Shown here: one piece after another, positions 35,065-64,000 of the stretch
How positions within the stretch are numbered: position 1 is the first letter of the stretch
Layout of the letters: every line of letters begins with the position of its first letter
NCBI RefSeq assembly: GCF_010093065.1
Contig: NZ_CP048113.1
Coordinates: forward strand, 5,084,001 to 5,148,000
Origin: Chitinophaga agri
GTDB lineage: Bacteria > Bacteroidota > Bacteroidia > Chitinophagales > Chitinophagaceae
Direction of reading: 5' to 3'
Length of the DNA stretch: 64,000 bases
The notes under the pieces: model-generated
Told to the model about the DNA's origin: nothing
Databases searched by the model: none
What the model saw: only the letters and a program-made list of their open reading frames with translations
Program-made: the position numbers and the translations under genes

Positions 35065-35067
35065 CCA

Positions 35068-35741: not shown

Positions 35742-35828
35742 CAATTCCCGACATTAGGTAATCTTATCAAGCAGATACACGCCGGTGCATGCTGTTGTAA
35801 GTGACCTGATGTCGGGAATTGTGTATCT
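35742..35828 (+). repeat. Interlocked inverted repeats between ATPase 2 and TolC genes
   Basis: Arm A at 35742-35759 pairs with A' at 35804-35821 over 18 positions with one G-T wobble (core CAATTCCCGACAT / ATGTCGGGAATTG). Arm B (AGATACAC, 35773-35780) lies in the loop and pairs perfectly with B' (GTGTATCT, 35821-35828). The order A-B-A'-B' allows a pseudoknot or two competing hairpins. There is no T tail directly after A'. Confidence 0.65.
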
Positions 35829-35899
35829 ATAGCATTTTTACACCGTTCTTAAAGAATTTATTTATGTTATCATCACAATTATTATATTTTTGGAAGGTC

Positions 35900-42160: not shown

Positions 42161-42226
42161 GTGGGGACTTAACGATATGGTAATATTAGTTGCTAAATTC
42201 CTTACTTTGCGGAAAAAGACAGATAC

Positions 42227-43228: not shown

Positions 43229-43318
43229 CTGATTGTTAACGTGTTGTTAAAATGTAGATAAGATTGTAGTGTAACCTTCGCAGCAGAATTTAATCAACCA
43301 GTAAAACTATATTCTGCT

Positions 43319-46300: not shown

Positions 46301-46600
46301 GAGTGGCACAGTGCCTGGACAGGTGGCCGTAACATTGCAGAAGGCGTGATGTACGATGCTTCTTTTGTAAAGCTGCGTGAACTGCAGATCGGTTATTCCT
46401 TCCCGGGATCATTTAAAAAAGGCGTGATCAAAGGCATGAACGTATCGCTGGTAGGCCGTAACCTCTTCCTGTGGGATAACGTACCGCACGTAGATCCGGA
46501 GGTAATGTCCTATTCCGGAGGTACAGCGCTGCCAGGTATTGAGTATATGAGCTTACCGAGCAGCCGTAGCTACGGTGTGAACCTGAGCTTCAAATTATGA
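43319..46600 (+). CDS. SusC/RagA-type TonB-linked outer membrane transporter 1
   Basis: A 1093-residue outer membrane protein. Signal peptide about 1-27, then a carboxypeptidase-regulatory-like beta domain (about 28-110, ISGKVISGDDRQPLPGATIQV). The plug domain begins near VVVTALGIKKERKKLGYA, and the C-terminal barrel ends in LSFKL. No STN domain is present, so it does not signal directly to a FecR. With the SusD that follows (its stop overlaps the open frame of that gene) it forms a substrate import pair. The substrate is not identifiable; the nearby GH92 gene makes mannose glycans a guess. Confidence 0.93.
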   Translation: MRKARLCLLSLSAGVFLLLFSLSVMAQQAISGKVISGDDRQPLPGATIQVKGASKKTITDNTGSFTIAAGNNDIIVISSIGFTTQEISASRAGNIVLATDTRGLGEVVVTALGIKKERKKLGYALQEVKGEDLTVARESNVVNQLAGKVAGVTVIGSPSGVGGSARVSIRGERSVDLNKNQPLYVVDGVPISNAINGGSGSNNTEVDFGNGASFINPDDIESMNVLKGPAAAALYGSRAANGVIMIKTKSGRKQKGIGVEVNSNLTLESALKLPEYQKVYGQGNASGGDFAFVNGGGAGLADGTDEGWGPAFRGQLFPQFNSPRTLNGQAIPYTGGDMNAPAGSVITPTAWVPDNDNLKNFLETGRTFTNNVALVGGNDHGDFRLSYTNLNQTGIVPNTDLKRNTTSFSAGYHFTPKFTAKAFVSYIKSESDNRPSISYGTESIMYLFNCWLPASVSVRDLKRLWQRGREDRQQYNWNYNYHDNPYMTVYENTNGQYYDRLIGNVILRYDLTSWLNLQVRTATDWSSERREYRRAFSTQRFPFGEYREVNIINEERNTDFLFAADKEINSNFSFNTTLGGNQMRQTSRFSEDVAGQLNIPGVYRLTNSRIALVANQNNVGKRINSFYGSGGISYKNKLFLDVTGRNDWSSALTLPEDLKAFGTEQNGYFYSSVALSAIISDMIKLPSVISFAKLRGSFAQVGNDTDPFAFTQTFNRSDPFGASQVYGETSRLSNLNLKPEISSAFEFGADIRFWQNRVGLDLTYYQSNTKNQILNIPLSNTSGYESRVINAGSIRNNGFEAMLNVTPVRKNNFSWDAYVNFSMNRSKVLELTDGLSNYVMADRSVSVEARVGERMGDLYGIGFARVQNTNPEGPYYDASGQYTGQMVFAANGRPVATTERIRLGNYNPDWLMGIGNTFNYKGIRLSCLFDVRHGGKLYSHTQTVGREGGIIKETLEGRADGYDMSKAGNGVIGNGVVQQADGKFAVNTTKVAVREWHSAWTGGRNIAEGVMYDASFVKLRELQIGYSFPGSFKKGVIKGMNVSLVGRNLFLWDNVPHVDPEVMSYSGGTALPGIEYMSLPSSRSYGVNLSFKL

Positions 46601-46623
46601 TGATCACCATTAAACAAGCAATC

Positions 46624-48138
46624 ATGAAATTCTTAAAGATATTTTTATTAGCCGGCCTTTTATCATCCTGTACACACGACTTTAGTGAGACCAACACTAA
46701 TGAGAATAATCCCACCAATGTAACGCCTGATCTGCTGCTGAGTGGCGTGATCAGGAATATGATGAACTCTCAGGTGAATACCGCCTGGGGCATCGGTAAT
46801 ATCGTAGTGCAGCATCATGCCAAGATACAGTTCGTTAATGAGGACCGTTATCTGTGGGGTGAGCAGAATGGAGTATGGGACGAGGTTTACAATAACTATC
46901 GCAATCTGCAGAACATCTTTACCGCAGTAGGAGCAGATACAACGAACCCATACCTGGGAGTATCGCTGGTATTAAAATCCTGGATGTTTGCACTGGCGAC
47001 GGATACTTATGGAGATGTACCGTATACTGAAGCTGGCAGGGCCAAGCTGGAGGGCAAATATCAGCCTAAATATGATGAACAGGAGGCGATCTATGCCGGT
47101 ATACTTGCAGACCTTAGGCGGGCGAACACCCTGCTGATGAACAGCAATACCAATCTGGATGGTGATATTCTATATGGAGGAGGCGCCAGTGCGATCCTGA
47201 AATGGCGTAAGCTGGCCAACTCTCTGAGGCTGCGTTACCTGCTGCGTTTGTCTAAAAGAAAGGATGTGAGCGCAGAAATGAATGAGATCGTGGCTAATCC
47301 GGTCCTTTTCCCTTTATTCTCAGATAATGCAGACAATGCAGAGCTGGAATACCTGTCATCGGCGCCTAACCAGTGGCCTTTATATGGAGCACGTGTAGGT
47401 TCATTTGATGAGTTCAGGGTGAGTAAGACCTTAAGCGATCGGCTGACAGCGCTGGGCGATCCTCGTCTGAAGGTATTTGGTCGTCCGTCACAGCGGTCGG
47501 TTACAGCAGGTACACCGAAGATAGAGGGTATACCCAACGGGCTGAGTGATGTGAATGCACTGGCCTATAATGGTGGTGTACAGGGTGTATCGAGAGTAGG
47601 GTATACATTTGCCTGCCTGGTATGCAATGACCAGGGGCAGGCAGCACCAGACCCGGCGGCGGCTAAGGGTACACTGATGACCTATGCAGAACTGATGTTT
47701 ACACTGGCAGAGGCGAGAGAGCGTAATATGATCACAGTTGGAGAGGCGGCAACATATTACAATAACGGGATCACTGCCAACTTTAACTACTGGAAGAGCA
47801 TCGTGCCTTCTCAGTATGGTATTGATGTGACGATGCCGGCAAATTATCTTACCCAGACAGGGGTGGCCTATACAGGCACCCAGGAGGAGAAACTCGCAAA
47901 GATCGCTTTACAGAAGTGGGTATCCTACTATTTTACTGGTTTGGAGGCCTGGTTTGACTGGAGACGTACGGGGATGCCTGAAATTGTTCCAGGTCCGTCC
48001 AACCTGAATAATGGTCGGGTACCGGTGAGATTTATCTATCCTCAGAGAGAACAGTCGCTGAATGGCATCAACCGTGGAGATGCGGTGAAGCGTCAGGGTG
48101 CTGATGATCTGAATACACGCATGTGGATCGCTAAGTAG
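46624..48138 (+). CDS. SusD/RagB-family substrate-binding lipoprotein 1
   Basis: A 504-residue surface lipoprotein of the SusD/RagB-like type. Signal peptide MKFLKIFLLAGLLSSC with lipidated cysteine at 16. TPR-like helical SusD fold; family blocks include LKSWMFALATDTYGDVPYTEA and AELMFTLAEARERN near the C-terminus. An earlier in-frame ATG at 46597 overlaps the SusC stop, but the one at 46624 gives the correct signal peptide. It pairs with the preceding SusC as lid of the transporter. Confidence 0.9.
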   Translation: MKFLKIFLLAGLLSSCTHDFSETNTNENNPTNVTPDLLLSGVIRNMMNSQVNTAWGIGNIVVQHHAKIQFVNEDRYLWGEQNGVWDEVYNNYRNLQNIFTAVGADTTNPYLGVSLVLKSWMFALATDTYGDVPYTEAGRAKLEGKYQPKYDEQEAIYAGILADLRRANTLLMNSNTNLDGDILYGGGASAILKWRKLANSLRLRYLLRLSKRKDVSAEMNEIVANPVLFPLFSDNADNAELEYLSSAPNQWPLYGARVGSFDEFRVSKTLSDRLTALGDPRLKVFGRPSQRSVTAGTPKIEGIPNGLSDVNALAYNGGVQGVSRVGYTFACLVCNDQGQAAPDPAAAKGTLMTYAELMFTLAEARERNMITVGEAATYYNNGITANFNYWKSIVPSQYGIDVTMPANYLTQTGVAYTGTQEEKLAKIALQKWVSYYFTGLEAWFDWRRTGMPEIVPGPSNLNNGRVPVRFIYPQREQSLNGINRGDAVKRQGADDLNTRMWIAK

Positions 48139-49835: not shown

Positions 49836-50981
49836 TTACCGGATGTGCAGTACACCATCTTTATAGTAGGATTCGGCGCCAGTGGTAAGCTGAATGGCAT
49901 CCAGGAATTCCTGCATAGGTTCTGCTTTCAGAATAGTGCCGGTAAAGCGTTTTTCAGCAATTTCCGGGTTATCGATCACTACCTGTACACCATACCAGCG
50001 GGGTAATACTTTAGTGATTTCTTTCATTGGCGTGTTATCAAGTTTATATTTCCCTTTGATCCAGAGTAGTTCGTTTTGATTTAAGGCGGTCAGTGCTGTG
50101 CCTTTGTCCTGCTGATATGTGATGGCTTGTCCGGGTTTGAGAACTGTTTGTTTACCGGCTATAGCGACAGAAACAGCGCCTTCTACCAGTGACACCTTTA
50201 TGCGTCCGGAGTCGTAAGTATTTACGTTAAAGGAGGTACCCAGTACTTGTACAGTACCTTTGGGCGTATGTAGTATGAACGGCCGGTTCTCATCTTTAGC
50301 GACCTGCAGCCAGGCTTCTCCATCGACAGTGATCTCTCTGGTATTGCCGGAGAAGTGGAACGGAAATCTAAGCGTAGTGGCACTGTTCAGGAATACGTGG
50401 GTGCCGTCAGATAATGTAATATGATAGTCCATTCCAGGAGGGACCCATAATTGGTTTACCTGGTCAGGGACAGCAGTATTTGTCTTAATGGTATATGTGA
50501 GGGAATTGTTTTGATTGTGGAGTTGTGCGGTACCGCCGTTAACAGCGATACTATCTTTCCGGGACGAGAGATCGACAATTTCCCCACTGGCAAGACGTAA
50601 CTGTAGCGTCTTATTACCGGTTGACATCAAAGCTACCTGTGCTTTGCGTGGATGGCTGGTAATAAGTGGATAAGTAAATATGGCAAGTGAGGTAATAGTA
50701 GCGGCTATAAACAGGACACCAAACGTCTGGACGCTCCGTTTACGGAGTTTCCTGTGTTTTAGTTCATCTTCGACATAAGCGAAGTCTGCTTCACTGTTGA
50801 GTGTTCTTACAGTGGGGTTTTCGGACCAAATGGCGTATTCCTGTTGAAGCTGTTCGAATTCGGTTTGTAATTCCGGATACTCTTTTAATGCATTTTGAAG
50901 GAGTTGCTCATCTGTTTCGTTAATAACCCCCATCACTTTTTCATTCATCAGCTGATGAATATGATCCCTGTCTAATTCCAT
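49836..50981 (-). CDS. FecR-family anti-sigma factor
   Basis: A 381-residue membrane-bound regulator. A cytoplasmic N-terminal part (1-80) is followed by a membrane segment VQTFGVLFIAATITSLAIFTYPLI (about 84-107). The periplasmic FecR domain covers about 180-275 (MDYHITLSDGTHVFLNSATTLRFP; EGAVSVAIAGKQTVLKPGQ). A C-terminal DUF4974/secretin-like domain (YKLDNTPMKEITKVLPRWYGV) ends the protein. It normally holds its ECF sigma until an STN-containing transporter signals substrate. It is 66 bases downstream of the sigma gene. Confidence 0.93.
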   Translation of the reverse strand: MELDRDHIHQLMNEKVMGVINETDEQLLQNALKEYPELQTEFEQLQQEYAIWSENPTVRTLNSEADFAYVEDELKHRKLRKRSVQTFGVLFIAATITSLAIFTYPLITSHPRKAQVALMSTGNKTLQLRLASGEIVDLSSRKDSIAVNGGTAQLHNQNNSLTYTIKTNTAVPDQVNQLWVPPGMDYHITLSDGTHVFLNSATTLRFPFHFSGNTREITVDGEAWLQVAKDENRPFILHTPKGTVQVLGTSFNVNTYDSGRIKVSLVEGAVSVAIAGKQTVLKPGQAITYQQDKGTALTALNQNELLWIKGKYKLDNTPMKEITKVLPRWYGVQVVIDNPEIAEKRFTGTILKAEPMQEFLDAIQLTTGAESYYKDGVLHIR

Positions 50982-51047
50982 GAAGTATTATTAAATCAAG
51001 TATAAGAGTACCGTAGTCTGAAAATGGGTGATATAATTATATGATTA

Positions 51048-51596
51048 TTATGACAATTTCTCGCGTAATGTTTTAATAGCTGTAGCAAGATGAGTCTTGA
51101 TAGTATTATCACTTAATCCCATTACGTTGGCTACTTCTTTTCTTTTCATACCCTGAAGAACATAGAGTTGAAATGCTTTACTTCTTTGTGCTGGCATGTA
51201 TTTAAGTAGCTCGTTCACTTTGTTATCAATGTAATCGCGTATGCCTGGTTCCTGTTCATCTTCGGGTTGAACAGTTGGCTCCTGTTGGGAGGAATAATAC
51301 GCCTGTTGTGATTTTTGCAGGCTCTTCTGTCTTTTTAAAATAAGCATACAGTTATACCGGATGGAGATATACAGATATCCCTTGAGGTTGGTATGTATGC
51401 TATTATATCGTTTTTTCTCGAAGAAGTCTATAAAGAAATCCTGTACCACATCCTTTGCTTCTTCGACACTTCCTAAAAGCCGGCTGGCTTCAAACAAAAG
51501 AAGTTTCTCAAAACGGATGTACATCGTTTTGTAAGCCTTGGTATCGCCGGATTTTAGTTCTTGTAGCAGCAGATCGTCATTCACGTCGGTGTGCAT
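51048..51596 (-). CDS. ECF-type RNA polymerase sigma-70 factor
   Basis: A 182-residue ECF sigma of the Bacteroidota FecI-like group. Region 2 lies about 22-95 (YIRFEKLLLFEASRLLGSVEEAKDVVQDFF) and region 4 about 120-178 (MPAQRSKAFQLYVLQGMKRKEVANVMGLSDNTIKTHL). It pairs with the FecR gene downstream and probably directs transcription of the divergent STN-SusC operon. Start taken at the ATG at 51596; the first few residues may vary. Confidence 0.94.
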   Translation of the reverse strand: MHTDVNDDLLLQELKSGDTKAYKTMYIRFEKLLLFEASRLLGSVEEAKDVVQDFFIDFFEKKRYNSIHTNLKGYLYISIRYNCMLILKRQKSLQKSQQAYYSSQQEPTVQPEDEQEPGIRDYIDNKVNELLKYMPAQRSKAFQLYVLQGMKRKEVANVMGLSDNTIKTHLATAIKTLREKLS

Positions 51597-51966
51597 GCTG
51601 ATTGATTCAGGTATGAATGATTAGATGAAAAGCACGTGTAAACTTAGTTCCCTTTAAATTAATATCATTGCATTCTCTGTTAATTTATTGTTCTCTATTC
51701 TGATGTACGGCAGTTTAATTTACACAGTTTCTCCGGATTTATTTCTTAATAATCAGTTAACATAGCCGGAAATGACTGATTCTATTGGTGTTAGTAGGTG
51801 GGGTGAGTGTCTGGCGTACTTTTTTTTAATAAAGCTTTCACCCATATTCTGCTACTTCTACTCTTAGATATAAAATCAGTAAACCAGAAACAGGGTGCTG
51901 TACTACACTAGCTAAATTCATTACAAATTCATGTCAGGAATTAACTAACCATTTAGACTTGTCCTT
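51597..51966. other. Divergent intergenic region between ECF sigma and STN-SusC genes
   Basis: About 370 bases, AT-rich, with no convincing gene. It should hold the promoters of both divergent units. I see no exact TAnnTTTG box on either strand, which fits control of the right-hand operon by an alternative sigma with an unknown recognition sequence. Confidence 0.45.
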
Positions 51967-54900
51967 ATGCATCGAAACTTTACTTACTGCTACGCGCAGC
52001 GTAGCTTAATGGCTATGCTATGGCTATTACTTCCCTGTATTTATTCATTTGCGCAGCGAAGTGCGCAGCCTGGAAGAAATGTTACACTTACCAATGCCCG
52101 GATTCCATTAGGTGAAGTGTTTAATATTATTGAAAAACAGACGGGTGTGCTGTTGTTTTTTGGAGAGCTGAATGTGGATCAGACGGTAGGGGTAAAGTTT
52201 GTTTCTACACCCGTAGAGGAGGCGCTGGGGACGATATTGCCACCGATAGGACTGACGTATGAGTATGTGAAGGGGAACAGGGATAAGATATTTATAAAGT
52301 CGGTAATGCCGACGAAGAAGGATACGGTGATGATGACAAGTATTAGTGGCGTGGTGACGGATGAGAAGGGGGAGCCGCTGCCGGGGGCGACGGTGCGGAT
52401 AAAAGGAGCACAGGTGGCAACAGCTACTAAAGACAACGGTTCCTTTACGTTGAATCATTCAGGAGAGAAGGACGTTTTACAAATCAGTTTTATGGGATTT
52501 GTATCTGCTGAAGTGGCGGTGGCGGGCAAAAAAAGTATAAAGGTGAAGTTGAGGCAGGGAGATAATAGCTTACAAGTGGTGACAGCTTATGGTACGACAA
52601 CACAGCGTGCATTAACGGGTGCTGTTACGGTAGTGAAAGGAGCTGAGATACAGAATTTACCGAATAGGTCATTTGATAAAAGTCTGCAAGGTTTGGTGCC
52701 TGGGTTATTAGTGACAAGTGGTACTGGTCAGCCTGGAGGCGGGCTTAGTAATTTTGTTTTAAGAGGGATTGCGTCGGCAGTGAATCCTGTAGCTGGTACA
52801 ACTGTCAGGAATCCATTAATTATAATAGATGGGATGCCCATATCCCAGGATGCGGCTCAGTTATATATAAACGAAAGAACCTCAATGACGCCTGTAAGTA
52901 ATCCTATTGCCCAGATTAACCCATCAGACATTGAAAGCATGTCTATTCTCAAAGATGCCGCGGCAATTGCGTTATATGGCGCAAAAGCGAGTAATGGTGT
53001 GATATTGATTACAACAAAGAGAGGTAAAGCAGGTAAAACACAGTTTAACTTCAGGCATCAGACAGATATCGCATCAGCGCTTTTAGGAACAAATGATTTT
53101 CTGGATCAGACAGAATATATGGACTTGCTATACGAGACCTATAAGAATACTCCTCGTATAGTGAACGGTGTGTCGATGCCCTGGACAGATCCTGAAATAC
53201 AGGAGGATCTTAAAAATAAATTCCCAACCCGCGCGGATGGTAGCTTTTATCCCGCTCCTGATTGGCGGAGGGAGATGTTCAATTCGGCGGCACTTACGGT
53301 TGGAAATGAAATTTCTATGTCCGGAGGTAATGATAGGAGTAATTACTATTTAAATGCGGAATATACAAAGCAAAATGGCGTCGTAAAAGGTACGGGTTAC
53401 GATAGGAAGTCTGTCAGGTTTAATTTCGAAAATCGTCCTGCCGACTGGGTGAAAGTCGGATTTAATAATCTTTTTTCCTACAATGTGCAGGATTATGGGG
53501 GGGCTCTTCAGAATGATGGGAATGTTTATTCTTCCAGTGTAGGCAAATTATCTCCTTTATTGCCAATTAGATTAGAGGATGGCAATTATCTCAACAATTT
53601 TGCCTATGGTGGCTTAGTAAATAATCAGGCCAATCCTGCTGCTGTAAGAGAATACAATGTTAACAGAAATACGGCTTTCCGCACATTGAATAAGTTGTAT
53701 GGAGAAATCGATTTCAAAAATGGTGTTAGAATCTCTTCTAATCTGGGACTGGATTTTATGTTGTCAGAAGCTAAAGAGATAGCCGATCCCAGATTGAAAG
53801 ACATCGCATCTGGAGCGGTGCAGGGAAGAATTGAAGAGCAGCATACTCGTTTGTCAAATATCATAACTACGAATATTATTAAATACGATAAAATAATCCG
53901 GCAACGACATGCAATAGGTTTTCTGATAGGGCAAGAGGCCCAGATTTTATACCGTAAGATATTGGGGGTAGGCGTCAGAGGACAGCGATCACCATACTAT
54001 GATCAAATAAGTAGCCCTGGTGTCTCTGCTACCGGGTTGCCAAGAGGATACGATAGGAAGGAGACGTTATTATCCTACTTTGGTCAGTTAAATTATGGAT
54101 TTGATAATAAATACTTCTTGTCAGGAAGTATTCGTAAAGATGGCTCCTCCAGATTTGGAGCAGATAAAAGGTATGGTGTTTACTGGTCAGCTGGAATGGG
54201 CTGGTTGTTAAGTGATGAAGCGCTGTTGAAAGAGCATTTGTCGTGGTTAAATCAGCTTAAAATACGTGGGAGTATTGGTGCAGCAGGAAATGCTTCAGCA
54301 ATTGACAGATTTACGCCTTATGATCAATTATCATTAGGTAGATACGACGGAAGTGCAGCAGTTTTTCCAGGGTCAGGGGCTGCTGGTAATCCGGATGTGA
54401 AATGGGAAAATACATTTACCTGGGACGCCGGTATAGAAAGCAGATTTCTTGATAATAGGATAGGACTGAATCTGGATTTCTATCAAAGAAATACTTCCAA
54501 TTTAATATATAGTATTAACCTTCCACTCAACACTGGTTTTCTGACTACGCTGGCAAATATTGGTAGAATGAGAAATAAGGGAATAGAATTAACATTTTCA
54601 GCGGATGTTATTAAGAATACTGATTTTCGATGGAACTTGATTGCCAACTGGAGTACGAACAAAAACACACTGATAAAGGCTGACGTACCCGCGGCAAGTT
54701 TAATATCAGGCATAATTGCTAATCAGGAAGGGCATAATTTCAATTCTTTTTACCTGCCCGATTGGGGCGGTGTTAACGCTACAGATGGAAGTCAGCAATG
54801 GATAGATTCAACAGGAAAGCTCACTAAAGATTATTTAGCAACAACTAGCTCGTTTGTAGGAAAGTCCCAGCCTGACGGATTTGGATCAGTGACGAATGCT

Positions 54901-55353
54901 TTTGCATTCAGGAATATAGAGGTTTCTTTCTCTTTATATTATCAGTATGGATTTCAGGTCTACAATTATAATGGGTTAGTGCACGACGGCGCTACCCCCT
55001 ATCTAAACCAGAGTAAACAGGCAAAAAATCATTGGCGTAAGCCAGGAGATGTTTCTCCTAATCCCAAACCGATACTAAATAATCCCATAAACAATGACTA
55101 TTTCTCGACGAGAAATTTATATGATGGCGATCATATAAGACTTCAGAATGTATCGGTAAGCTATAGCTTACCCAATGTTCTACTTCACGATTTGCACATC
55201 AGCAATGTCAAAATATATCTTCAGGGAAACAACCTGGCTCTTTGGTCCAGATATAAGGACAAGGATGTGTCAAATGTTGACATGGCAGGTATTTCCGGAC
55301 TTATATATCCTGCGCAGAAAACATACTCTATTGGTCTTAATGCAAGTTTCTAA
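51967..55353 (+). CDS. STN-containing SusC/RagA TonB-linked transporter 2
   Basis: A 1128-residue outer membrane transporter-transducer. Signal peptide about 1-29. An STN domain (about 38-100, GEVFNIIEKQTGVLLFFGEL) is the part that contacts FecR. A carboxypeptidase-regulatory-like domain (about 124-200, ISGVVTDEKGEPLPGATVRI) is followed by the plug (VVTAYGTTTQRALTGAVTVV) and a barrel ending in GLNASF. With the divergent sigma/FecR pair it forms a substrate-sensing circuit. SusD 2 begins 15 bases later. The substrate is not identifiable. Confidence 0.94.
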   Translation: MHRNFTYCYAQRSLMAMLWLLLPCIYSFAQRSAQPGRNVTLTNARIPLGEVFNIIEKQTGVLLFFGELNVDQTVGVKFVSTPVEEALGTILPPIGLTYEYVKGNRDKIFIKSVMPTKKDTVMMTSISGVVTDEKGEPLPGATVRIKGAQVATATKDNGSFTLNHSGEKDVLQISFMGFVSAEVAVAGKKSIKVKLRQGDNSLQVVTAYGTTTQRALTGAVTVVKGAEIQNLPNRSFDKSLQGLVPGLLVTSGTGQPGGGLSNFVLRGIASAVNPVAGTTVRNPLIIIDGMPISQDAAQLYINERTSMTPVSNPIAQINPSDIESMSILKDAAAIALYGAKASNGVILITTKRGKAGKTQFNFRHQTDIASALLGTNDFLDQTEYMDLLYETYKNTPRIVNGVSMPWTDPEIQEDLKNKFPTRADGSFYPAPDWRREMFNSAALTVGNEISMSGGNDRSNYYLNAEYTKQNGVVKGTGYDRKSVRFNFENRPADWVKVGFNNLFSYNVQDYGGALQNDGNVYSSSVGKLSPLLPIRLEDGNYLNNFAYGGLVNNQANPAAVREYNVNRNTAFRTLNKLYGEIDFKNGVRISSNLGLDFMLSEAKEIADPRLKDIASGAVQGRIEEQHTRLSNIITTNIIKYDKIIRQRHAIGFLIGQEAQILYRKILGVGVRGQRSPYYDQISSPGVSATGLPRGYDRKETLLSYFGQLNYGFDNKYFLSGSIRKDGSSRFGADKRYGVYWSAGMGWLLSDEALLKEHLSWLNQLKIRGSIGAAGNASAIDRFTPYDQLSLGRYDGSAAVFPGSGAAGNPDVKWENTFTWDAGIESRFLDNRIGLNLDFYQRNTSNLIYSINLPLNTGFLTTLANIGRMRNKGIELTFSADVIKNTDFRWNLIANWSTNKNTLIKADVPAASLISGIIANQEGHNFNSFYLPDWGGVNATDGSQQWIDSTGKLTKDYLATTSSFVGKSQPDGFGSVTNAFAFRNIEVSFSLYYQYGFQVYNYNGLVHDGATPYLNQSKQAKNHWRKPGDVSPNPKPILNNPINNDYFSTRNLYDGDHIRLQNVSVSYSLPNVLLHDLHISNVKIYLQGNNLALWSRYKDKDVSNVDMAGISGLIYPAQKTYSIGLNASF

Positions 55354-55368
55354 ATAATTATAAATATT

Positions 55369-56790
55369 ATGTCTGTATGTAAATGCGGCTGGTACGCGAT
55401 TTTAATGGCAGTCTTCTTTTTCTCCTGTAAAAAGAGCTTTTTGGAAGTTACGGATAAGACCGTTTTGTTAAAGCAAGCTTATGTCAAGGATCTGACTTCC
55501 ACGCAGGATTACCTGAATGGTATTTATATCAACCTGGTAAGCGATTATGCTTATGGTACGAAATTGCCTTATGCGGAAATCATTGCCGATAATATGAAAC
55601 CTGTTAATGGTGGCCGATATTTGATGACTGAGTATATGTGGACTCAACAGGCCAATAGCACAAGCGGTAAATCTAATTCTAATGAGCTTTGGCGTAAGCT
55701 GTACAGGATAATAAGAGACTGTAGCTTTGTGTCTGAGTGCGCCGACAAGTATAAAAACGAGAACGAAAGTAGTGCGAGGAGTATTAAAGGGCAGGCGCTT
55801 GGAATCAGAGCATTGATGCATTTTGTATTAGTGAATACATTTGCTCAATCTTATAATTTTACAAATGACGGTTCCCATCCGGGAATACCATATATCACAA
55901 CATCCGATCTGGAGAGTAAAGAGACGAGACAAACAGTTGCTGAAGTATATCAGGGAATCGAGGATGATTTAAAGTCAGCAATTTCATTATTATCCCAAAG
56001 CGATATAAAAACGGAAGTATTTAATTATCAGGCCGCAAAGGGACTGCTTGCCCGTGCATATCTTTTTTCAGGTGAGTTTTCTTCCGCAAAGGAAATGGCT
56101 ACACAGGTATTATCATCTGTGCCATTACTAATTGAGGGTTATCCGGAAAAACTTTATACGAGAGAAGAAACCGAGGCATTATTCCGGCTGCCACCAATTG
56201 TGTCAGAAGAGGATAACTACTATGGAATTTTTACAGGGTATTATGCTAGTCCTAAATGGGAAATGGCTTATTGGGCAACTGATGATATAGCAAAAATACT
56301 TCAGGAGAGCGCTGATGACAAGAGGGCGAATTGGGTGTCTCGATCACCAGATGGTTGGGTCATAACAAAGTTTCCAACAGGGGCCACAGGACTTTTCCCT
56401 GTTGTTGAAGGAGATCATTACCAGGTTCTCCTGCGATCGTCGGAGATGTGTTTAATCGCATCCGAATCTTGTGCACATCTTGGGCAGCTTGATAGCGCAA
56501 GAATATATCTTCAAAAGATACGCAGCCGTGCAAATCCTTCGGTGAGTCCAATGCCAATAGATCAGGGTAAGCCAGCCTTGCTTGATTCAATTTACAAGGA
56601 GCGACGCAAAGAGCTTGCATTCGATGGACTAAGAATGTTTGATCTGTTAAGATGGAAACAGGGTGTAAACAGATCAGATGCTAACAGTGATATGGCGAAA
56701 AGTTTGTCCTATCCCAATAATAAAGCAATTGCCCCTATTCCACAACAGGAAGTTGAATTGTCGGGATTTAGTCAGAACCCAGGTTATTGA
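55369..56790 (+). CDS. SusD/RagB-family lipoprotein 2
   Basis: A 473-residue surface lipoprotein with a signal peptide ending in FFFSC (lipidated C20). The helical SusD fold is seen in IKGQALGIRALMHFVLVNTFA and ERRKELAFDGLRMFDLLRWKQG near the C-terminus, both family blocks. It lies between the STN-SusC gene (15 bases) and the thioredoxin-phosphatase gene (26 bases), so the three form one operon. Confidence 0.92.
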   Translation: MSVCKCGWYAILMAVFFFSCKKSFLEVTDKTVLLKQAYVKDLTSTQDYLNGIYINLVSDYAYGTKLPYAEIIADNMKPVNGGRYLMTEYMWTQQANSTSGKSNSNELWRKLYRIIRDCSFVSECADKYKNENESSARSIKGQALGIRALMHFVLVNTFAQSYNFTNDGSHPGIPYITTSDLESKETRQTVAEVYQGIEDDLKSAISLLSQSDIKTEVFNYQAAKGLLARAYLFSGEFSSAKEMATQVLSSVPLLIEGYPEKLYTREETEALFRLPPIVSEEDNYYGIFTGYYASPKWEMAYWATDDIAKILQESADDKRANWVSRSPDGWVITKFPTGATGLFPVVEGDHYQVLLRSSEMCLIASESCAHLGQLDSARIYLQKIRSRANPSVSPMPIDQGKPALLDSIYKERRKELAFDGLRMFDLLRWKQGVNRSDANSDMAKSLSYPNNKAIAPIPQQEVELSGFSQNPGY

Positions 56791-56816
56791 CCCTTAATTA
56801 CTAAACAAACATTGGT

Positions 56817-59387
56817 ATGAGAAACTACTATATATTGATCCTGTGTCTATTGATTGCGATAACAGAAGGCATAGCACAAGACAGGAGTAAAATGATTTTA
56901 GTTATTGAATGCTCTTCTGGTGTTGCCAAAGATTCTGTTGAATTGACGTCAGTTTCCAGTCAAAGGGAATTTGTGACCAGGGAAAGAAGCACATTATATC
57001 TTAGTCAATGTCCGGTAACTAAGGTGTTCAATGCCGATGCGCCTCTCCTTATAACAGGGAGAGGTGAGGAAACTGCCACCAGTTTCTATTGTATTTTGGA
57101 GCCAGGTGATAGTTTGGTGGTCAGTTATAAAAATGATGACATCGTTTTATCTGGTGTTGGGGTGGAGAAAAATTTGCTCAAGAGAGAACTCCTCATGATC
57201 ACAGATGCTATGAAGCGACCATCGAATCCTTTTAGATACTATACGTATTCACTGGACGATTATTGGGAATGGAACGTGTATTTGGATAAGCAAATGTCTA
57301 ATGCATTGTCATTAATAGAGCAAAGAAAGAATATCCTGTCTCCAAAGGTATATCAACTATTAAAAGTTGAAACAATTCTCCATACGCAGGAACAGAAACA
57401 CGATAAATTTAGAGGTTTATATTCATTGTATATTAAAAATGGCAGCGTCTCAGGAATATCGAGGGAGATGCTGGCACAGATCTTTGATAAAACTTTCTTT
57501 AATGCCGATTTTAACTGGATGCGTTCTCAGAAAATAGGTCTTTCGGGCGACCTTGGTTTTGTAAAGGACTTAATAGAAAGAAACGGGTTATACCCCAGGG
57601 AGTATGATAGTCTGGCAGGCGGAGCTATTGGACGTCTACGGGAATATTATGAAGTTGGAAAGAAGATGTATGCTGGTGACGCGTTGGAGAGTTTTCTTAT
57701 TGAGATGATGACGACAGAGGTAATTTACGATGAGGGATACAAGAAAGGATTTGGCAAGCAAGTTGATGACTTGCTGCAACATTTTTATTCAGACCCGGCA
57801 ATAGATCTTAAAGCAAAGCAGATGGTACGCTCTTCTGAAGAAAAATATAGGCAGAAATCAGTAGGAGCCGGTGCTGTATTTCCTTCTTTTTCTTTTCGTG
57901 ATAAGCATGGCAGATATTACAAGAACCAGGACTTTGAAGGTAAATTCATCATTTTTAACTTCAATACTGAAGTGGAAAAGAAATTAGATTTATCAGGAAT
58001 TGAGGATATGTTAAGTAACGATCCACGAATGCTGGTAGTAAATGCAAAGATCAATAAAGTTGGAAAAGGCGTACACGTTAAAAAGACTAAAAATTCAAAG
58101 CCGTATGTTACCTATAACCAATTGGATCTGTATCCCTCTCCTGATGACGATATAAGCAGCCTTATAAAAACATTTCAATTACAGGAGCGGAAAAACGTAT
58201 TTATACTTAATGAGAAAGGCACCATATTGGCTAATTTTCCAACTGATTTTGATCGTTCTGAATTGCGCACTATGTTAAAGGAACGCTTGAATGTATTGGC
58301 TGATGGTCCATATATCGTTAAGGAAGGAGAGCAAAATGCTTCGTATGAGATAGGGCAACATGGTGACCTGACGAGAGTAGTGTGCGGAAAGAATAGTTTT
58401 ATAGAAGTTAATACGGATATTCTGGGGAAGTCCTTTGAGATCAAACTGAAAGATACAATTTATTCAGAGCCAGTGGAATTTGACAAACCTTCGAAGATAA
58501 TGGCATTGTCTGATATAGAGGGCAATTTTAAATCTTTCAGGGAGCTGCTGCAGGCTAATAAGGTTATAGATACTAACTTCAGATGGTGCTTTGATAGTGG
58601 TCATTTGGTTATTAATGGTGATATGTTTGACAGAGGAGAACAAGTCACCGAATGTCTATGGTTAATTTATAAGTTGGAAGATGAAGCCAGAGAGGCTGGA
58701 GGATATGTTCATTTTATATTGGGCAATCATGAGATCATGAACTTGAGTGGCAATCATAGATATGTGAAGGACAAGTATAAGCGTAATTCGAAAAAGATAG
58801 GAAGACGCTACAGTGGACTTTTTGACGAATACAGTGAACTAGGTAAATGGTTGAGAAGTAAAAATATCGCTGAAAAGGTAGGGGATTTACTTTTTGTGCA
58901 TGGAGGAATCAGTCCTGAGGTTTGTGACCTGGAGATTACTTTACACGATATGAACGCTATGGCGAAAAATTACTATGATAAGGATACCGTAGCCGCCCGG
59001 TCAAGTGATAATCGGTTAGCAGCCCTTTATAATGTTAAAATATCGCCATTTTGGTATAGACAATACTATTTGGAGAATGAAACCAAAGTTACCGTTAGTG
59101 CCAGGGGAATTGATACTACATTTAGAACTCCGGAATCAGTGATAGATAAAACACTTAAACTGTATAATGTTAACCATATTGTCACCGGGCATACTATTAT
59201 TAAAGGAAATACATATGGTAAATACGTGACCACTCATTATTCTAATAAAGTGATTAATACGGATACACATCATGCAAAAGGTGACACTGAAGCACTCATG
59301 TTTGATAGAAATGTTTATTATCGGGTTAATAAAGAAGGAATGCGGGTTTTACTGTTTTCTCAACCGGCTGCTTACACGCTGAAATAG
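56817..59387 (+). CDS. Secreted thioredoxin-like/metallophosphatase fusion protein
   Basis: An 856-residue periplasmic protein. Signal peptide MRNYYILILCLLIAITEGIAQ. Residues about 22-350 resemble the N-terminal part of Bacteroidota TlpA-like proteins. Residues about 355-500 have a TlpA/AhpC-like pattern (FPSFSFRDKHGRYYKNQDFEGKF and NVFILNEKGTILANFP) but no CxxC, so a redox role is unlikely. Residues about 560-850 are a PPP/Shewanella-like phosphatase: DIEGN (D566, E568 in place of the usual His, N570), GDMFDRG (D602, D605), GNHE (N637, H638), VHGG (H695) and GHT (H792). Its gene is third in the STN-SusC operon. Phosphatase activity on an envelope phosphoprotein or small phosphoester is inferred; the substrate is unknown. 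Confidence 0.85.
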   Translation: MRNYYILILCLLIAITEGIAQDRSKMILVIECSSGVAKDSVELTSVSSQREFVTRERSTLYLSQCPVTKVFNADAPLLITGRGEETATSFYCILEPGDSLVVSYKNDDIVLSGVGVEKNLLKRELLMITDAMKRPSNPFRYYTYSLDDYWEWNVYLDKQMSNALSLIEQRKNILSPKVYQLLKVETILHTQEQKHDKFRGLYSLYIKNGSVSGISREMLAQIFDKTFFNADFNWMRSQKIGLSGDLGFVKDLIERNGLYPREYDSLAGGAIGRLREYYEVGKKMYAGDALESFLIEMMTTEVIYDEGYKKGFGKQVDDLLQHFYSDPAIDLKAKQMVRSSEEKYRQKSVGAGAVFPSFSFRDKHGRYYKNQDFEGKFIIFNFNTEVEKKLDLSGIEDMLSNDPRMLVVNAKINKVGKGVHVKKTKNSKPYVTYNQLDLYPSPDDDISSLIKTFQLQERKNVFILNEKGTILANFPTDFDRSELRTMLKERLNVLADGPYIVKEGEQNASYEIGQHGDLTRVVCGKNSFIEVNTDILGKSFEIKLKDTIYSEPVEFDKPSKIMALSDIEGNFKSFRELLQANKVIDTNFRWCFDSGHLVINGDMFDRGEQVTECLWLIYKLEDEAREAGGYVHFILGNHEIMNLSGNHRYVKDKYKRNSKKIGRRYSGLFDEYSELGKWLRSKNIAEKVGDLLFVHGGISPEVCDLEITLHDMNAMAKNYYDKDTVAARSSDNRLAALYNVKISPFWYRQYYLENETKVTVSARGIDTTFRTPESVIDKTLKLYNVNHIVTGHTIIKGNTYGKYVTTHYSNKVINTDTHHAKGDTEALMFDRNVYYRVNKEGMRVLLFSQPAAYTLK

Positions 59388-59432
59388 AAAACCTCGCATC
59401 AGTAATGCTGAGTGTGTCAATTATAATGATAG

Positions 59433-59473
59433 CCTACAGGCATTTTTCTCTTTACGAGGATCATGTCTGTAGG
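59433..59473. terminator. Hairpin between convergent operons
   Basis: CCTACAGGCAT (59433-59443) pairs with ATGTCTGTAGG (59463-59473) with one G-T wobble, in the 170-base gap between the phosphatase gene and the last DUF4221 gene. The T-rich loop side could support termination; a likely bidirectional end. Confidence 0.5.
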
Positions 59474-59557
59474 TGCTAGTATAGATCCCTGTGTATTTTC
59501 ATTGTATTATTGGGGGATAACACATTAAATAAATGGGCGTTGTGTTTTTAACTACGT

Positions 59558-60682
59558 TTATTCCTGATATAACAGCTTGATAAAGCTGACACTATATTCG
59601 TTCCTTTTATTGACTCTGCAGTACATGTGCCCATCGTTCGCCCAAAATAGCTGATCTAGAGATATGTTGTTATCTATTGTCGACTCTCCGATGATTTGAA
59701 ATTTATGATCAAGTATTATAATCGATTGCCTTTTTTGCCTGGGTAAGGCATGATTTTTTTCCTCGATAGGGTGTTTCGCCACCCGAAGGTATTTATGGTG
59801 TTGTGGATCGGCATATATATAGTCGTATGAGTAATTTGTGTCGTATAGTTTTTGCCCATGTTCATTTTTAAAATCTTCATCTGTCATAGGGCTTAAAATA
59901 GTTGCATGATGTTTACTTTTCACTTTGTAAGCCCGTAGATATTGGGTTGATGTTGTTTCGTAAATATTTGTATCTCCGGCAAAACTTAATAGGAACGTGT
60001 TTCTGTCTGTCTCACAAAAACTTGATCTTAAGAATCTATGTCCATACCTCTCTGTACGCAGAGCTTTGGGATAATTTATATTTAATGAGGTCTTTTTTTC
60101 ATCTATATTAAATTCATACAGGTTTTTCCATTTTTTAATAGACTTAATGGAAGTCTCTTTTACAAAAGGACGTACGGCAGTGAAGAGGATATTATTTCTC
60201 TTTATGGCGGGATTATTAGTGTCAAAAAATGGCCATGCAAATTCAGGTGATGAGGCATAGGAGACTTTATTAACTATGCGCCCTGATTTATTTAGTAAGT
60301 AAAGATTTGTATTGTTTGTCACAAAAATACTGTCGAAGTTTTTTGTATATACCGAAACCTTATACAAATGAGAACTTCTGAGACATGTTTTTAAATTGAT
60401 GCGGACAGTCCGGATATGTGTATTCCAATCATATATATTAATGCTTTGCGAAGTATGATCGTATAGGGAAATAAAATTATTACCTGATTCGGAGAAGAAG
60501 CTGATGGATCTGATATCGTTGTAAGTGCTGTCATCCAGCTGAAAAATTGTTGTGTCTTTCGATGTTATAATTCCTGTCTTATTATAATCAGGCGTTAGTT
60601 CAATTATTGCGGGGTCTTCGTTTTCAGATGAGCAGCAACATACAATAAGACATAACAGGAGTGTGGGGTAATAATACTTCAT
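59558..60682 (-). CDS. DUF4221 lipoprotein, copy 2
   Basis: A 374-residue lipoprotein with a cysteine cluster at the signal-peptide end (LIVCCC, residues 12-17). The rest is all-beta in pattern with repeated aromatic-rich strands and reads as a DUF4221 protein, thought to fold as a propeller. Blocks such as YKVSVYTKNFDSIFV, FAGDTNIYE and SIIILDHKFQIIGES also occur in its neighbour, so the two arose by duplication. Last gene of the minus-strand cluster, 18 bases after copy 1. No enzymatic motif is visible. Confidence 0.8.
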   Translation of the reverse strand: MKYYYPTLLLCLIVCCCSSENEDPAIIELTPDYNKTGIITSKDTTIFQLDDSTYNDIRSISFFSESGNNFISLYDHTSQSINIYDWNTHIRTVRINLKTCLRSSHLYKVSVYTKNFDSIFVTNNTNLYLLNKSGRIVNKVSYASSPEFAWPFFDTNNPAIKRNNILFTAVRPFVKETSIKSIKKWKNLYEFNIDEKKTSLNINYPKALRTERYGHRFLRSSFCETDRNTFLLSFAGDTNIYETTSTQYLRAYKVKSKHHATILSPMTDEDFKNEHGQKLYDTNYSYDYIYADPQHHKYLRVAKHPIEEKNHALPRQKRQSIIILDHKFQIIGESTIDNNISLDQLFWANDGHMYCRVNKRNEYSVSFIKLLYQE

Positions 60683-60700
60683 GAATGTTGTTTTATAGTA

Positions 60701-61885
60701 TTACGCTTTCTTATATGTTAACCTTATGAAAGAAACTGCGCCTCTTTCTTTATTATTTAAGCGCGCGTATAATTTCCCATCTTGAGTGATCAATAAACCA
60801 TAGTTTATCATTAAACTATTACTTATGATGGATTCTCCAATAACTTCAAGATCGTCGTTCAAGATTATCAGGGATTGTGATTTTACCCAGTTTTTTTGAG
60901 CGTAGTTGCCATCAGATATGCCCTGTTGCGCAACTCTCAGGTATAGCCTGGAGTTATTGTCATAGTAAATGTTCCCATATGTGTCACTTTTCCAGTACAC
61001 TTCATTTCTGTCTGTCAATAAATCCTTCGTCGATGACACCAGATAATGATGCTGAAATTTGCTCTGTGCATAGTGTGCCAGATGGATGTCTTTAAAATCT
61101 GTTTCATAAATGCAGGTATCTCCGGTGAAACTGATCACGAATCTGCCATTGGCGTTGATACAGTAACTAGATATCAAAAAGCTAATATTTGAAATTGTGT
61201 CTCTAAATTTGGCCGGCAAATTATACAAGAGCTTACTGTTATTTTTCTTCAGGTCGAATTCATAAAGAATTTTCCAGTTTTTTAACTCGTTTTTTATAAA
61301 AGGTCTCATGTGGGGACGGACAGCAGTATAGATCTTTTGGTCTTTAAATGTCGCCGGATTTCCTGTTTGAAAGAATGCCCATGCTGAAGGGTGACTTGAA
61401 AGAAAGTCAGTGCTGTATCTTAGATTACCACTACTGTCGAATAAATTTATTTTGTTTCTATTAATGACAAATATGCTATCGAAGTTTTGTGTATAAATAC
61501 TGATCTTATATAGTTCTGTCTTTTTGAAGAGTTCATTCAGTGCAAATCTTTTAATTATTGTGGTATTATTGAAGTCATAGATGCTGAGCGTTTCTGAATA
61601 TGCATCATAGATGGAAATATAATCTTTGCCTCCATCGTTAAATATATTCATGGATTGAATATCCTTTTTGGGCATGGAAGGGAATAAGAAGCGTAGGGTG
61701 TCATCTGATTCCTTTAATTTTATTTTTCCATAGTCAGGAATACTAAAGACGTGCTTAGCTTCCTTTGATTCATTTTGTGAACAAGCAAACAGCACGAGTT
61801 GTAAGAATGAGAATAGTGTGTAAACGAAAATATTGTTAACCTGAATTGGAGCCTTGAACATACGGTATGAATTTTTAAGTTTCAC
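60701..61885 (-). CDS. DUF4221 lipoprotein, copy 1
   Basis: A 394-residue protein similar along its length to the next gene: YKISIYTQNFDSIFV, FTGDTCIYE, SLIILNDDLEVIGES. The ATG at 61861 (MFKAPIQVNN) is the better start, since it gives a signal peptide ending in VLFAC with lipidated C27; the longer start adds eight residues. Mostly beta strands, as expected for a DUF4221 propeller. Function unknown. It lies 27 bases after the phosphatase-like pseudoenzyme gene. Confidence 0.8.
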   Translation of the reverse strand: MKLKNSYRMFKAPIQVNNIFVYTLFSFLQLVLFACSQNESKEAKHVFSIPDYGKIKLKESDDTLRFLFPSMPKKDIQSMNIFNDGGKDYISIYDAYSETLSIYDFNNTTIIKRFALNELFKKTELYKISIYTQNFDSIFVINRNKINLFDSSGNLRYSTDFLSSHPSAWAFFQTGNPATFKDQKIYTAVRPHMRPFIKNELKNWKILYEFDLKKNNSKLLYNLPAKFRDTISNISFLISSYCINANGRFVISFTGDTCIYETDFKDIHLAHYAQSKFQHHYLVSSTKDLLTDRNEVYWKSDTYGNIYYDNNSRLYLRVAQQGISDGNYAQKNWVKSQSLIILNDDLEVIGESIISNSLMINYGLLITQDGKLYARLNNKERGAVSFIRLTYKKA

Positions 61886-61912
61886 GAGTCTTTTTCTGGA
61901 TCGTATGGATTA

Positions 61913-62824
61913 TTATAGCTGACGTGATCGGGACGGAGCATATTGAGTAATATAAAATTGGTTATTGCTAAAATATAGTGTCTGCCGCCGCTCTGTTGTT
62001 GGTAGTGATGGCAATAATATTACATTATCATTTTGTGCAAATTCTATTGTGTCCAGGTTCTTTTGTCCTAGAATAACATAAAATATCTCTTTGGGGGATA
62101 ATGATGAGCGTTCTTTATCAGATCTTATTTCACGCGGCGATGACATCTTTTCGGATTTCTCATCTTCATTATATGAGCAGATATTTGTTTTTCTTATTTT
62201 ATTAACATATTCAATCGCTTTAAGCGAAAAATGATATGGTTTATTCAGACGTTTAAAATTGTCACTTAATTCCGTTGAGAGTATTGTTGCCGTTGAGTGA
62301 CCAATGAGAAGAGTGCCTATTTTTTCAACAACATTTTTTGTTTTTAGCCATCTCCAAAGTTCATTGTTCCCATCATATAACACGGTGTTCGTCGATCTTA
62401 GAGATAAGCTTTCAATCATGGCATAGTTGGGATGACTATTTCGCCATATTGTATCTCTAAGGAGTGAATTATAGTTGGACAGTATTAAGTGGATATATCC
62501 TCCTTGTTTTTTTGCCTTTTCCTCCAGCGAATATAATAGCCACAGACAATTTATCCTTTCTTCTTCGATGGTCTCAAAGTCTTCGATTATCACAATATGT
62601 TTGTTCGAGAATGTCCATTTGTAGTGTTTGTCTATTATTTCTTCTTTGAGTAAGGTTTTTTGTAGAGAAGCGAAGTTATGAGTGATGTTAGATAAAAAGA
62701 TAATTTCGGGCGAGCAGTTAAATTCAATAGGTTCATTGATAAGATTTTTCTGTAGTCGAACAGAGAAATGCTTCGTATGTTCTTGTTTTCCTGGGACACG
62801 TATATGTAATCTTATTCTTGCCAT
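61913..62824 (-). CDS. Catalytically dead homologue of the metallophosphatase
   Basis: A 303-residue protein that aligns with residues of about 555-850 of the phosphatase encoded at 56817-59387. EPIEFNCSPEIIFLSN matches EPVEFDKPSKIMALSD, and INCLWLLYSLEEKAKKQGGYIHLILSN matches the corresponding helix. Every catalytic motif is changed: DIEGN to NITHN, GDMFDRG to EDFETIE, GNHE to SNYN, VHGG to IGHS, and GHT to LGQ. It lacks the thioredoxin-like part and has no obvious signal peptide from this start, so location is uncertain. It should not be an active phosphatase; a binding or regulatory role is inferred. It starts 14 bases after the CPYC lipoprotein gene. Confidence 0.82.
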   Translation of the reverse strand: MARIRLHIRVPGKQEHTKHFSVRLQKNLINEPIEFNCSPEIIFLSNITHNFASLQKTLLKEEIIDKHYKWTFSNKHIVIIEDFETIEEERINCLWLLYSLEEKAKKQGGYIHLILSNYNSLLRDTIWRNSHPNYAMIESLSLRSTNTVLYDGNNELWRWLKTKNVVEKIGTLLIGHSTATILSTELSDNFKRLNKPYHFSLKAIEYVNKIRKTNICSYNEDEKSEKMSSPREIRSDKERSSLSPKEIFYVILGQKNLDTIEFAQNDNVILLPSLPTTERRQTLYFSNNQFYITQYAPSRSRQL

Positions 62825-62838
62825 TGCTTTTATAATGC

Positions 62839-63348
62839 TTAGTGGAAAAAATCAGCTAAATCATCCTTCACCGAATAGGGGATTGAAGCTACTTTTTTGT
62901 AGATTTTCCCTTTTGTGGAATAATAGAATGTTGGTTTGTCAGCGCAGAGCGCATATTCACTAGCTTTATTTGTACTGTCTATGCGGATATTGGATGAAGT
63001 GATTGGTAGATCATAACCTTGTTCTCTAAACAATGCTGCTATTGTCTTTAGTCCCTTATTAGCAGATATTATTATGTAATGCGAGGTGTCAATATTTTTA
63101 TGTTTTTTAGCTATTTTTTCAATGGTTTTCTTTTTGCAATAAGGACAACTTGCATTGATTGGAAGAATAAGAAAAGCAAGAGAATCTTGAGATTTTACCT
63201 GAGGAATTCCTTCCAATAGGGAATCGATTTTTTTAAAGATATGAACTTGCACATTACTATCTAAGATCACTTCTGTATGTGTTACTTTCTTTTCGTTTCT
63301 ACACGAAATCAGTATTAAAGCCACAAAGAAAATAATATTTGTTTTCAT
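62839..63348 (-). CDS. Thioredoxin-fold lipoprotein with a CPYC motif
   Basis: A 169-residue periplasmic lipoprotein. From the ATG at 63348 the signal peptide ends in LISC (lipidated C16); ATGs up to five codons upstream are in frame. The redox motif CPYC is at residues 68-71, followed by a basic helix (KKKTIEKIAKKHK). The cis-proline block appears as DKPTFYYS. Both are as expected for a thiol-disulfide protein. It is the second gene of the minus-strand cluster, and its natural substrate may be the two-cysteine secreted protein encoded just upstream; this is inference. Confidence 0.8.
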   Translation of the reverse strand: MKTNIIFFVALILISCRNEKKVTHTEVILDSNVQVHIFKKIDSLLEGIPQVKSQDSLAFLILPINASCPYCKKKTIEKIAKKHKNIDTSHYIIISANKGLKTIAALFREQGYDLPITSSNIRIDSTNKASEYALCADKPTFYYSTKGKIYKKVASIPYSVKDDLADFFH

Positions 63349-63382
63349 CATTGTGAGGGTCATGATGCAGTCATGAATGGTG

Positions 63383-63431
63383 ATAGTTAAAACAACCTAA
63401 AGCTGGAATTGCCCTAGATTGTTTTAACTAT
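63383..63431. repeat. 13-bp inverted repeat between peptide and CPYC genes
   Basis: ATAGTTAAAACAA (63383-63395) and TTGTTTTAACTAT (63419-63431) pair perfectly around a 23-base loop. It lies directly after the peptide stop. It can act as a partial terminator, which would give more peptide transcript than downstream transcript. Confidence 0.6.
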
Positions 63432-63449
63432 TTGGATGTATTTAATCCA

Positions 63450-63764
63450 TTATTTATCACCTGTTACAGTTGTGTTAGTATCTGCACCTGCACTTGGCGC
63501 ATCACCAGAGGTTGCAGCTGCACCTACAGAAGTAGCAGATGCTCCGCCCGCAGTTAGCGTGTTGTGGCAATCTGCTGGTACGGTTGGACCTGATTCTTTT
63601 GGCTGGCAGGTAATAGAGTTGCCACTTCCGGTAAGTGTTCCATCCAGTGCGAATTTTGCATTGTCAGCTTTTGACTCTGATGGGATGAATGCAGCAGTGA
63701 TTGCAGAAGCACCAAGCAGTGCCATGCCTAGAAAAGAGAATTTTTTTACAGATAACTTTTGCAT
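63450..63764 (-). CDS. Short secreted two-cysteine protein
   Basis: A 104-residue protein with an N-terminal signal peptide (MQKLSVKKFSFLGMALLGAS, cleavage probably near SKA-DN at 33-34). The mature part has only two cysteines, C53 and C66, 12 residues apart, and so could form one disulfide. The last 35 residues are low-complexity Ala, Gly, Ser, Thr (TAGGASATSVGAAATSGDAP). I do not recognise a family. Small secreted peptides next to DUF4221-like or TlpA-like proteins are a recurring Bacteroidota theme (for example NVEALA-type peptides), which this resembles in size only. First gene of the cluster, with a -7 box upstream. Confidence 0.7.
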   Translation of the reverse strand: MQKLSVKKFSFLGMALLGASAITAAFIPSESKADNAKFALDGTLTGSGNSITCQPKESGPTVPADCHNTLTAGGASATSVGAAATSGDAPSAGADTNTTVTGDK

Positions 63765-63827: not shown

Positions 63828-64000
63828 GCGAAGGCTTGTCTTATATAAACAGACATAAAGTGTATGTCCGGTAATTATCTGATTTTATTTTTTCAGGATA
63901 TCAATAGCCGTACATTTTTATAGTTTACAAGTTGTAATTAATGCGTGGATATTAGCGGAAAGCCCATGTCTGTGTTGCAATAGCGTATCAGAAAGTGTAT

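Follow-up and report, generated by a model that had tools for sequence, protein, structure and literature searches.

A lyase-less relative of lanthipeptide synthetases suggests a phosphate-tagged secreted peptide in Chitinophaga

What do a secreted phosphatase, a phosphatase homologue without an active site, a lipoprotein with a CPYC motif and a small secreted peptide have to do with one another? The question is raised by the genome of Chitinophaga agri (G000; 7.97 Mb, a single contig), in a stretch of 64,000 nucleotides, G000:C1:5084001-5148000, which we refer to as the window. A first-pass annotation of positions 49836-63764 proposed a module with substrate sensing as its main function. The evidence leads elsewhere, as the centre of the locus is a lanthipeptide-synthetase-like enzyme and its peptide, and the enzyme gene lies mostly beyond the window. 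Taken together, the sequences suggest a conserved cluster that makes a phosphate-tagged secreted peptide.

The enzyme, of 710 residues, is encoded at 5147938-5150070 and joins a protein kinase to a LanC-like domain. Genes for a small helix-turn-helix (HTH) protein, a 235-residue protein and an AraC regulator lie upstream on the same strand. The top NCBIfam models are those of class IV and class III lanthipeptide synthetases (LanL and LanKC), which reach 226 of 650 and 157 of 575 bits; they align from the kinase onward only, and both scores are far below the curated equivalog cut-offs. The kinase starts near residue 30, and the lyase domain that occupies residues 29-213 of the class III enzyme ThurKC (PMC10604976) is missing. 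The RamC_N lyase has no match in this gene or anywhere in the genome, and neither does HopA1; DUF4135, the class II-type enzyme domain as in phospeptin, also gave no match in the genome, in a search whose control was silent as well. Judged by its domains, the enzyme is a relative of class III/IV lanthipeptide synthetases that is devoid of the N-terminal lyase. Across 17 lyase-less copies its kinase residues K65, H171-R172-D173, N178 and D191 do not vary, and the LanC-like domain (PF05147) is above cut-off both here (70 bits) and in relatives. No Cys or His, the zinc ligands of class IV enzymes, is found among the invariant LanC columns in the alignment of 17. The loss of zinc ligands as proof of a dead cyclase was dropped, since the lyase-bearing relatives equally lack a conserved adjacent Cys-His pair. 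Two more LanC-like genes of the genome (G000:C1:7589949 and 5680524, loci L220 and L221) are above the Pfam cut-off; on visual inspection the genes beside them resemble those for class I lanthipeptide-type enzymes, one of which looks LanB-like. In two related loci, 450-residue proteins by the HTH gene (L022:2407-3762 and L024:3926-5278) have a LanC-like part and, as aligned, none of the catalytic motifs of a kinase, which suggests a remnant or a regulator.

The absence of the lyase is associated with the presence of a phosphatase. For 52 kinase-LanC genes from 60 Chitinophaga-genus genomes, a PPP-family phosphatase was sought within 12 kb, and it was found beside 17 of 17 lyase-less genes of this type and beside 0 of 30 genes that themselves encode RamC_N. 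Fisher's exact test on the 17 and 30 genes gives 4e-13, a figure to be read with the single origin of the lyase-less clade: the association, though tight, reflects one evolutionary event, and the two groups are not independent counts. On a tree of 47 proteins, all 26 lyase-less enzymes with the phosphatase form one clade, with support 100/99. The five other genes have no phosphatase: two are long and without a RamC_N match (888 residues in G015, 813 in G003:C11), one is shorter with RamC_N, and two are lyase-less (L212:8547-10493 in G023 and L213:8750-10678 in G046; 648 and 642 residues). The kinases of the latter two look dead from their motifs, having HRS for HRD and FINAG at the DFG-type site. 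Genome-wide, RamC_N finds no match in 10 of the 16 system-bearing genus genomes, including C. agri. At other fetched genus loci with lyase-type LanKC genes, which are without this phosphatase (L068-L085), SusC and SusD lie inside the fetched 19.5 kb in 12 of 18 cases, a figure that carries no chance expectation, such pairs being common in these genomes; they are often accompanied by MauE/DoxX and thioredoxin-like proteins and by small leader peptides, of which some bear a weak resemblance to DUF6520. A general link of LanKC with SusC/SusD is possible, and the present system may be a phosphatase-bearing offshoot of that wider association.

The peptide belongs to a family without a Pfam or NCBIfam name. 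A search with the single peptide retrieved itself only, and a profile search collected 102 members, with Chitinophaga, Niastella and Paraflavitalea as named hosts. Its leader has six invariant positions in 19 aligned members, more conservation than we would expect for a Sec signal alone. An aligned pair of cysteines is present in 130 of 134 distinct sequences. Thr or Ser stands directly before the first Cys in all 130 paired peptides, versus 83 of 688 Cys in other proteins at the loci, and at the third position after the second Cys in 121 of 130 (versus 55 of 687); no probability is attached to these counts, the peptide sequences being related. Three peptides lack the first Cys, two of them at locus L067 and the third being P0119, and all keep the Thr at the preceding place. 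In the L067 peptides Ala-Ala occupies the position of the Cys pair, and the locus is also without the CPYC lipoprotein.

The genes of the system inside the window are as follows, with the evidence for each in brackets.

49836..50981, minus strand: FecR-type anti-sigma factor (PF04773 and PF16344, above cut-off)
51048..51596, minus strand: extracytoplasmic function (ECF) sigma factor (Sigma70_r4_2 and TIGR02937, above cut-off)
51967..55353, plus strand: SusC-type TonB-dependent transporter with a possible STN domain (TIGR04056, 722 bits; STN E 0.0012, below its cut-off)
55369..56790, plus strand: SusD-type lipoprotein (PF14322, PF07980)
56817..59387, plus strand: secreted fusion of a thioredoxin-like domain and a PPP (calcineurin-type) phosphatase, motifs intact (PF00149; 2zbm, E 3e-52)
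59558..60682, minus strand: DUF4221 lipoprotein a (PF13970; the family profile matches the solved structure 3s9j)
60701..61885, minus strand: DUF4221 lipoprotein b (no hmmscan match; above the family cut-off in the genome search; profile match)
61913..62824, minus strand: short homologue of the phosphatase that lacks the active site and, by eye, a signal sequence (homologues, lost motifs, model matching 1v73)
62839..63363, minus strand: CxxC (CPYC) lipoprotein, weakly thioredoxin-like (alignment of 16; best PDB match 5um7, E 0.028)
63450..63764, minus strand: small two-Cys, Thr/Ser-rich peptide with a Sec-type leader (nameless family)
63938..64000, minus strand: 3' end (last 63 bases) of the lyase-less kinase-LanC gene

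Family matches and homologues place these genes where the first-pass annotation had put them and in the families it had given, including the phosphatase fusion and both DUF4221 lipoproteins. Its call of an STN-bearing SusC holds for SusC, which lies with SusD, FecR and the sigma factor in one neighbourhood; the STN domain is a possible one, its match lying below the cut-off. In the CPYC lipoprotein, the lipobox-like Cys21 and both Cys of the CxxC are invariant in 16 homologues, and 5um7 is a thioredoxin-signature protein. DUF4221 is also found at two further places in the genome. Signal sequences, that of the secreted phosphatase included, were called by eye.

Are the two convergent units of the window one system? 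When the 60 genus genomes were searched with the CPYC lipoprotein, it turned up in 15 of them, at 16 places, and both halves of the locus are present at every one. The 15 places besides the window each have SusC, SusD, phosphatase, peptide and DUF4221; at L032 the fusion is divided between two genes, one for a thioredoxin-like protein and one for a secreted phosphatase. The comparison set consists of 25 loci besides the window, namely these 15, 7 from other genera of the family, 2 from Niastella (taken among the matches listed in a contig scan) and the CPYC-less L067. The long phosphatase and the CPYC lipoprotein are on one strand in 22 of the 24 CPYC-bearing loci; L123 is convergent, as the window is, and only these two among CPYC-bearing loci are so arranged. 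The units are linked beyond chance, because both halves are codirectional in those 22 loci, and they belong to one conserved system, as had been proposed from the homology between them. Independent units are ruled out by the recurrence of both halves together across the comparison loci. The co-occurrence is not exclusive to the parts, as DUF4221 and secreted phosphatases of about 370 residues also occur apart; loci L124-L131 hold PPP phosphatases of this latter kind, and the stretches fetched around them show no kinase-LanC gene.

Typically the genes run SusC, SusD, long phosphatase, peptide, DUF4221, CPYC lipoprotein and short phosphatase, faced by the 235-residue protein, kinase-LanC, HTH and AraC genes. 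Across the 25 loci, the peptide is present in 25, kinase-LanC and HTH in 24 each, the 235-residue protein in 13 and AraC in 12, some fetched stretches stopping short of the place of the last. The sole locus without kinase-LanC, L119, is one where the contig stops, and the gene sits on a separate contig, L217. The short phosphatase is retained in 23 of 25, being missing from L032 and L067; L067 keeps kinase-LanC and the phosphatase. A class-wide search of 395 genomes at E 1e-60 matched two, C. agri itself and a kinase-only match, with at most two candidates scored per genome, so that absence there is weak evidence. Olivibacter and Myxococcales proteins among the matches listed in the contig scan have 899 and 894 residues, which is lyase-bearing length.

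The two phosphatases have had different fates. Homology to the Shewanella protein-tyrosine phosphatase extends across about 310 residues of the phosphatase domain in the secreted fusion (E about 1e-52), and the motifs DxEG, GDxxDRG, GNHE, HGG (HAG in two) and TGHT are retained in 25 of 25 distinct long copies. The thioredoxin-like part has no Pfam match alone; with its homologues it matches TlpA/ResA-type structures (2lrn, E 2e-20), and no CxxC is visible in it in the window fusion. In the short homologue of the window the metal motifs are lost, DIEGNF, GDxFDRG, GNHE, VHGG and TGHT being replaced by NITHNF, EDFETIE, SNYN, GHST and LGQK. Its structure model, with a predicted local distance difference test score (pLDDT) of 76.5, has the Shewanella cold-active phosphatase (1v73) as best match (E 3e-15), and by sequence and predicted fold it is a pseudophosphatase, in keeping with the first-pass call of a homologue without active site. 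The pairing of phosphatase and pseudophosphatase recurs across loci: the motifs are lost in 19 of 24 distinct short copies, and none of the 15 genus copies keeps them. The proposed place of the short homologue in the envelope is not supported, there being no signal sequence by eye. Intact and lost short copies alternate on the 47-protein tree among the other-genera loci; assuming an intact ancestor, the active site would have been lost at least twice. Residues such as W70, W95, Y98, H112, W127 and K163 show no variation when 31 homologues are aligned, and this, with the retention of the gene, fits a retained binding role.

How might these parts work? We rate at about an even chance that one system makes, exports and handles a peptide that is phosphorylated inside the cell, not dehydrated, and dephosphorylated in the envelope. 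The kinase would phosphorylate Thr/Ser residues of the peptide, those on either side of the Cys pair being the likeliest targets. Because the enzyme is without a lyase, the phosphate would stay, and the phosphopeptide would exit the cytoplasm via Sec. The short homologue could bind it inside, as an escort or a brake, or act as an eraser in lineages where it is intact. The CxxC lipoprotein may handle the Cys pair in the envelope, as thiols or as a disulfide, and the secreted phosphatase would strip the phosphate there, so that the peptide is switched on, off or recycled. At the outer membrane, SusC and SusD might transport or sense the peptide, with possible feedback via FecR and the sigma factor. 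Streptomycin biosynthesis follows such a prodrug logic, a phosphate being put on inside and taken off outside. In favour of the proposal are the shared gene order of the loci, the missing lyase beside unvarying kinase residues, the phosphatase found near every lyase-less gene of this type and its intact motifs, the constant Thr/Ser before the first Cys, the known cases of phosphorylation without elimination, and L067, where peptides without the Cys pair go with a missing CPYC lipoprotein while kinase-LanC and phosphatase remain. A fuller version, an envelope-spanning circuit in which the synthetase writes, the cytoplasmic pseudophosphatase reads or protects, the secreted phosphatase erases, and SusC, FecR and sigma factor report, is a tentative idea that we consider rather unlikely in its entirety.

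Several points weigh against even the simpler proposal, beside the single origin of the clade. Phosphorylation of the peptide and Sec export of a phosphopeptide are both inferred. The LanC domain is retained, though no dehydrated substrate would be expected. Six of the 16 system-bearing genus genomes have RamC_N somewhere, and L022 and L027 hold a RamC_N-kinase protein within the cluster. Five of the 24 distinct copies of the short homologue (L117-L120 and L134) keep the active-site motifs. L067 is one lineage, a further two Cys lie close to the end of one of its two peptides, and the locus is also without the short homologue and DUF4221.

Some of these same points favour the main rival, a true lanthipeptide system in which an unrecognised protein or the short homologue eliminates the phosphate and LanC closes rings, for example between the Thr/Ser before the first Cys and the second Cys, and between the first Cys and the Thr/Ser after the second. 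The retained LanC domain, the near-universal Cys pair with Thr/Ser on both flanks in most peptides, and the RamC_N-kinase of L022 and L027 would all be at home there. Set against it are the missing RamC_N and HopA1 matches, a short homologue that is highly variable and absent from two loci, and the L067 peptides without the pair. The 235-residue protein (L036:4751-5458 in the C. agri genome; no family match, model pLDDT 79) was tried as a lyase and rejected, its best PDB match being at E 0.035, with none lyase-like among the best 50 listed, and its gene being present in about half of the loci (13/25). A lyase elsewhere in the genome was likewise set aside on the RamC_N and HopA1 results, no search having been aimed at LanB, the class I dehydratase. 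We regard this explanation as unlikely, yet the most serious of the rivals.

A second possibility is that the secreted phosphopeptide scavenges a metal or nutrient, its phosphates binding metal, SusC and SusD importing it under FecR and sigma control, and the phosphatase freeing the cargo. The adjoining ECF sigma, FecR, SusC and SusD genes and the Thr/Ser-rich peptide agree with this; no metal-related gene was recognised among the scanned genes, and two Thr/Ser on the flanks would be a small number for a metal site, which leaves it improbable. Least credible, and very improbable, is an ordinary SusC/SusD uptake or sensing module with a phosphatase, along the lines of the first-pass view, in which kinase-LanC would be a mere neighbour. 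It has the sigma/FecR and SusC/SusD genes in its favour, such pairs being common in these genomes, and against it the near-constant enzyme (24/25) and constant peptide (25/25) of the loci and the tie between the phosphatase and the loss of the lyase.

Compared with known systems, the favoured reading of a phosphorylated product has precedents. The cluster resembles LanKC and LanL systems in its kinase followed by a LanC-like domain and in a small adjoining Thr/Ser/Cys precursor; unlike them, it has no lyase domain, scores far below the NCBIfam cut-offs, a Sec-type leader, and phosphatases, a CxxC lipoprotein and SusC/SusD adjoining. One report describes the phospeptin enzyme (embAM), also a lanthipeptide-synthetase relative, as stopping at phosphorylation, with a single dehydration-type domain and mutated elimination residues (PMC9259500); here the product is inferred from genes, the enzyme combines a PF00069 kinase with PF05147 LanC, a whole domain is lost, and there are dedicated phosphatases. 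Salivaricin 10 is a secreted ribosomally synthesised and post-translationally modified peptide (RiPP) that keeps phosphothreonine; it differs in its macrocycles and its origin from Streptococcus, and the word phosphatase occurs 0 times in its text (PMC13219514). These two are precedents for phosphorylation without elimination. The Shewanella cold-active protein-tyrosine phosphatase (PDB 1v73, 2z72, 2zbm) has a homologous phosphatase domain; unlike it, the domain here is fused to a thioredoxin-like one, and the short relatives are mostly without an active site. A lyase-less LanKC with a phosphatase was not found in the literature searched, which covered few subscription papers and included accessible parts of PMC10604976, PMC7268733, PMC10206099, PMC8939145, PMC9259500 and PMC13219514. 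Phosphorylating relatives of lanthipeptide synthetases are thus known, and what is new is this gene architecture, without counterpart in that literature.

If the proposal is true, an antibiotic-type peptide pathway became phosphate-writing by the loss of a single domain, and about two dozen natural cases would have writer and eraser encoded together. The function of phosphorylated RiPPs could then be tested in culturable soil bacteria; culturable carriers of the system include Chitinophaga filiformis DSM 527 and Niastella yeongjuensis. Recurrent loss of the active site in the short phosphatase would be a clean case for pseudoenzymes gaining a binding role.

Two neighbouring regions of the window complete the picture. 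At 40118-48138, a GH92 glycosidase, a glycerol-3-phosphate dehydrogenase and a second SusC/SusD-type pair adjoin the system. At 21434-37255, a sigma-54-type response regulator, an ATP-binding cassette (ABC) ATPase and an outer-membrane efflux protein lie around four open frames of about 800 residues, possibly an efflux locus.

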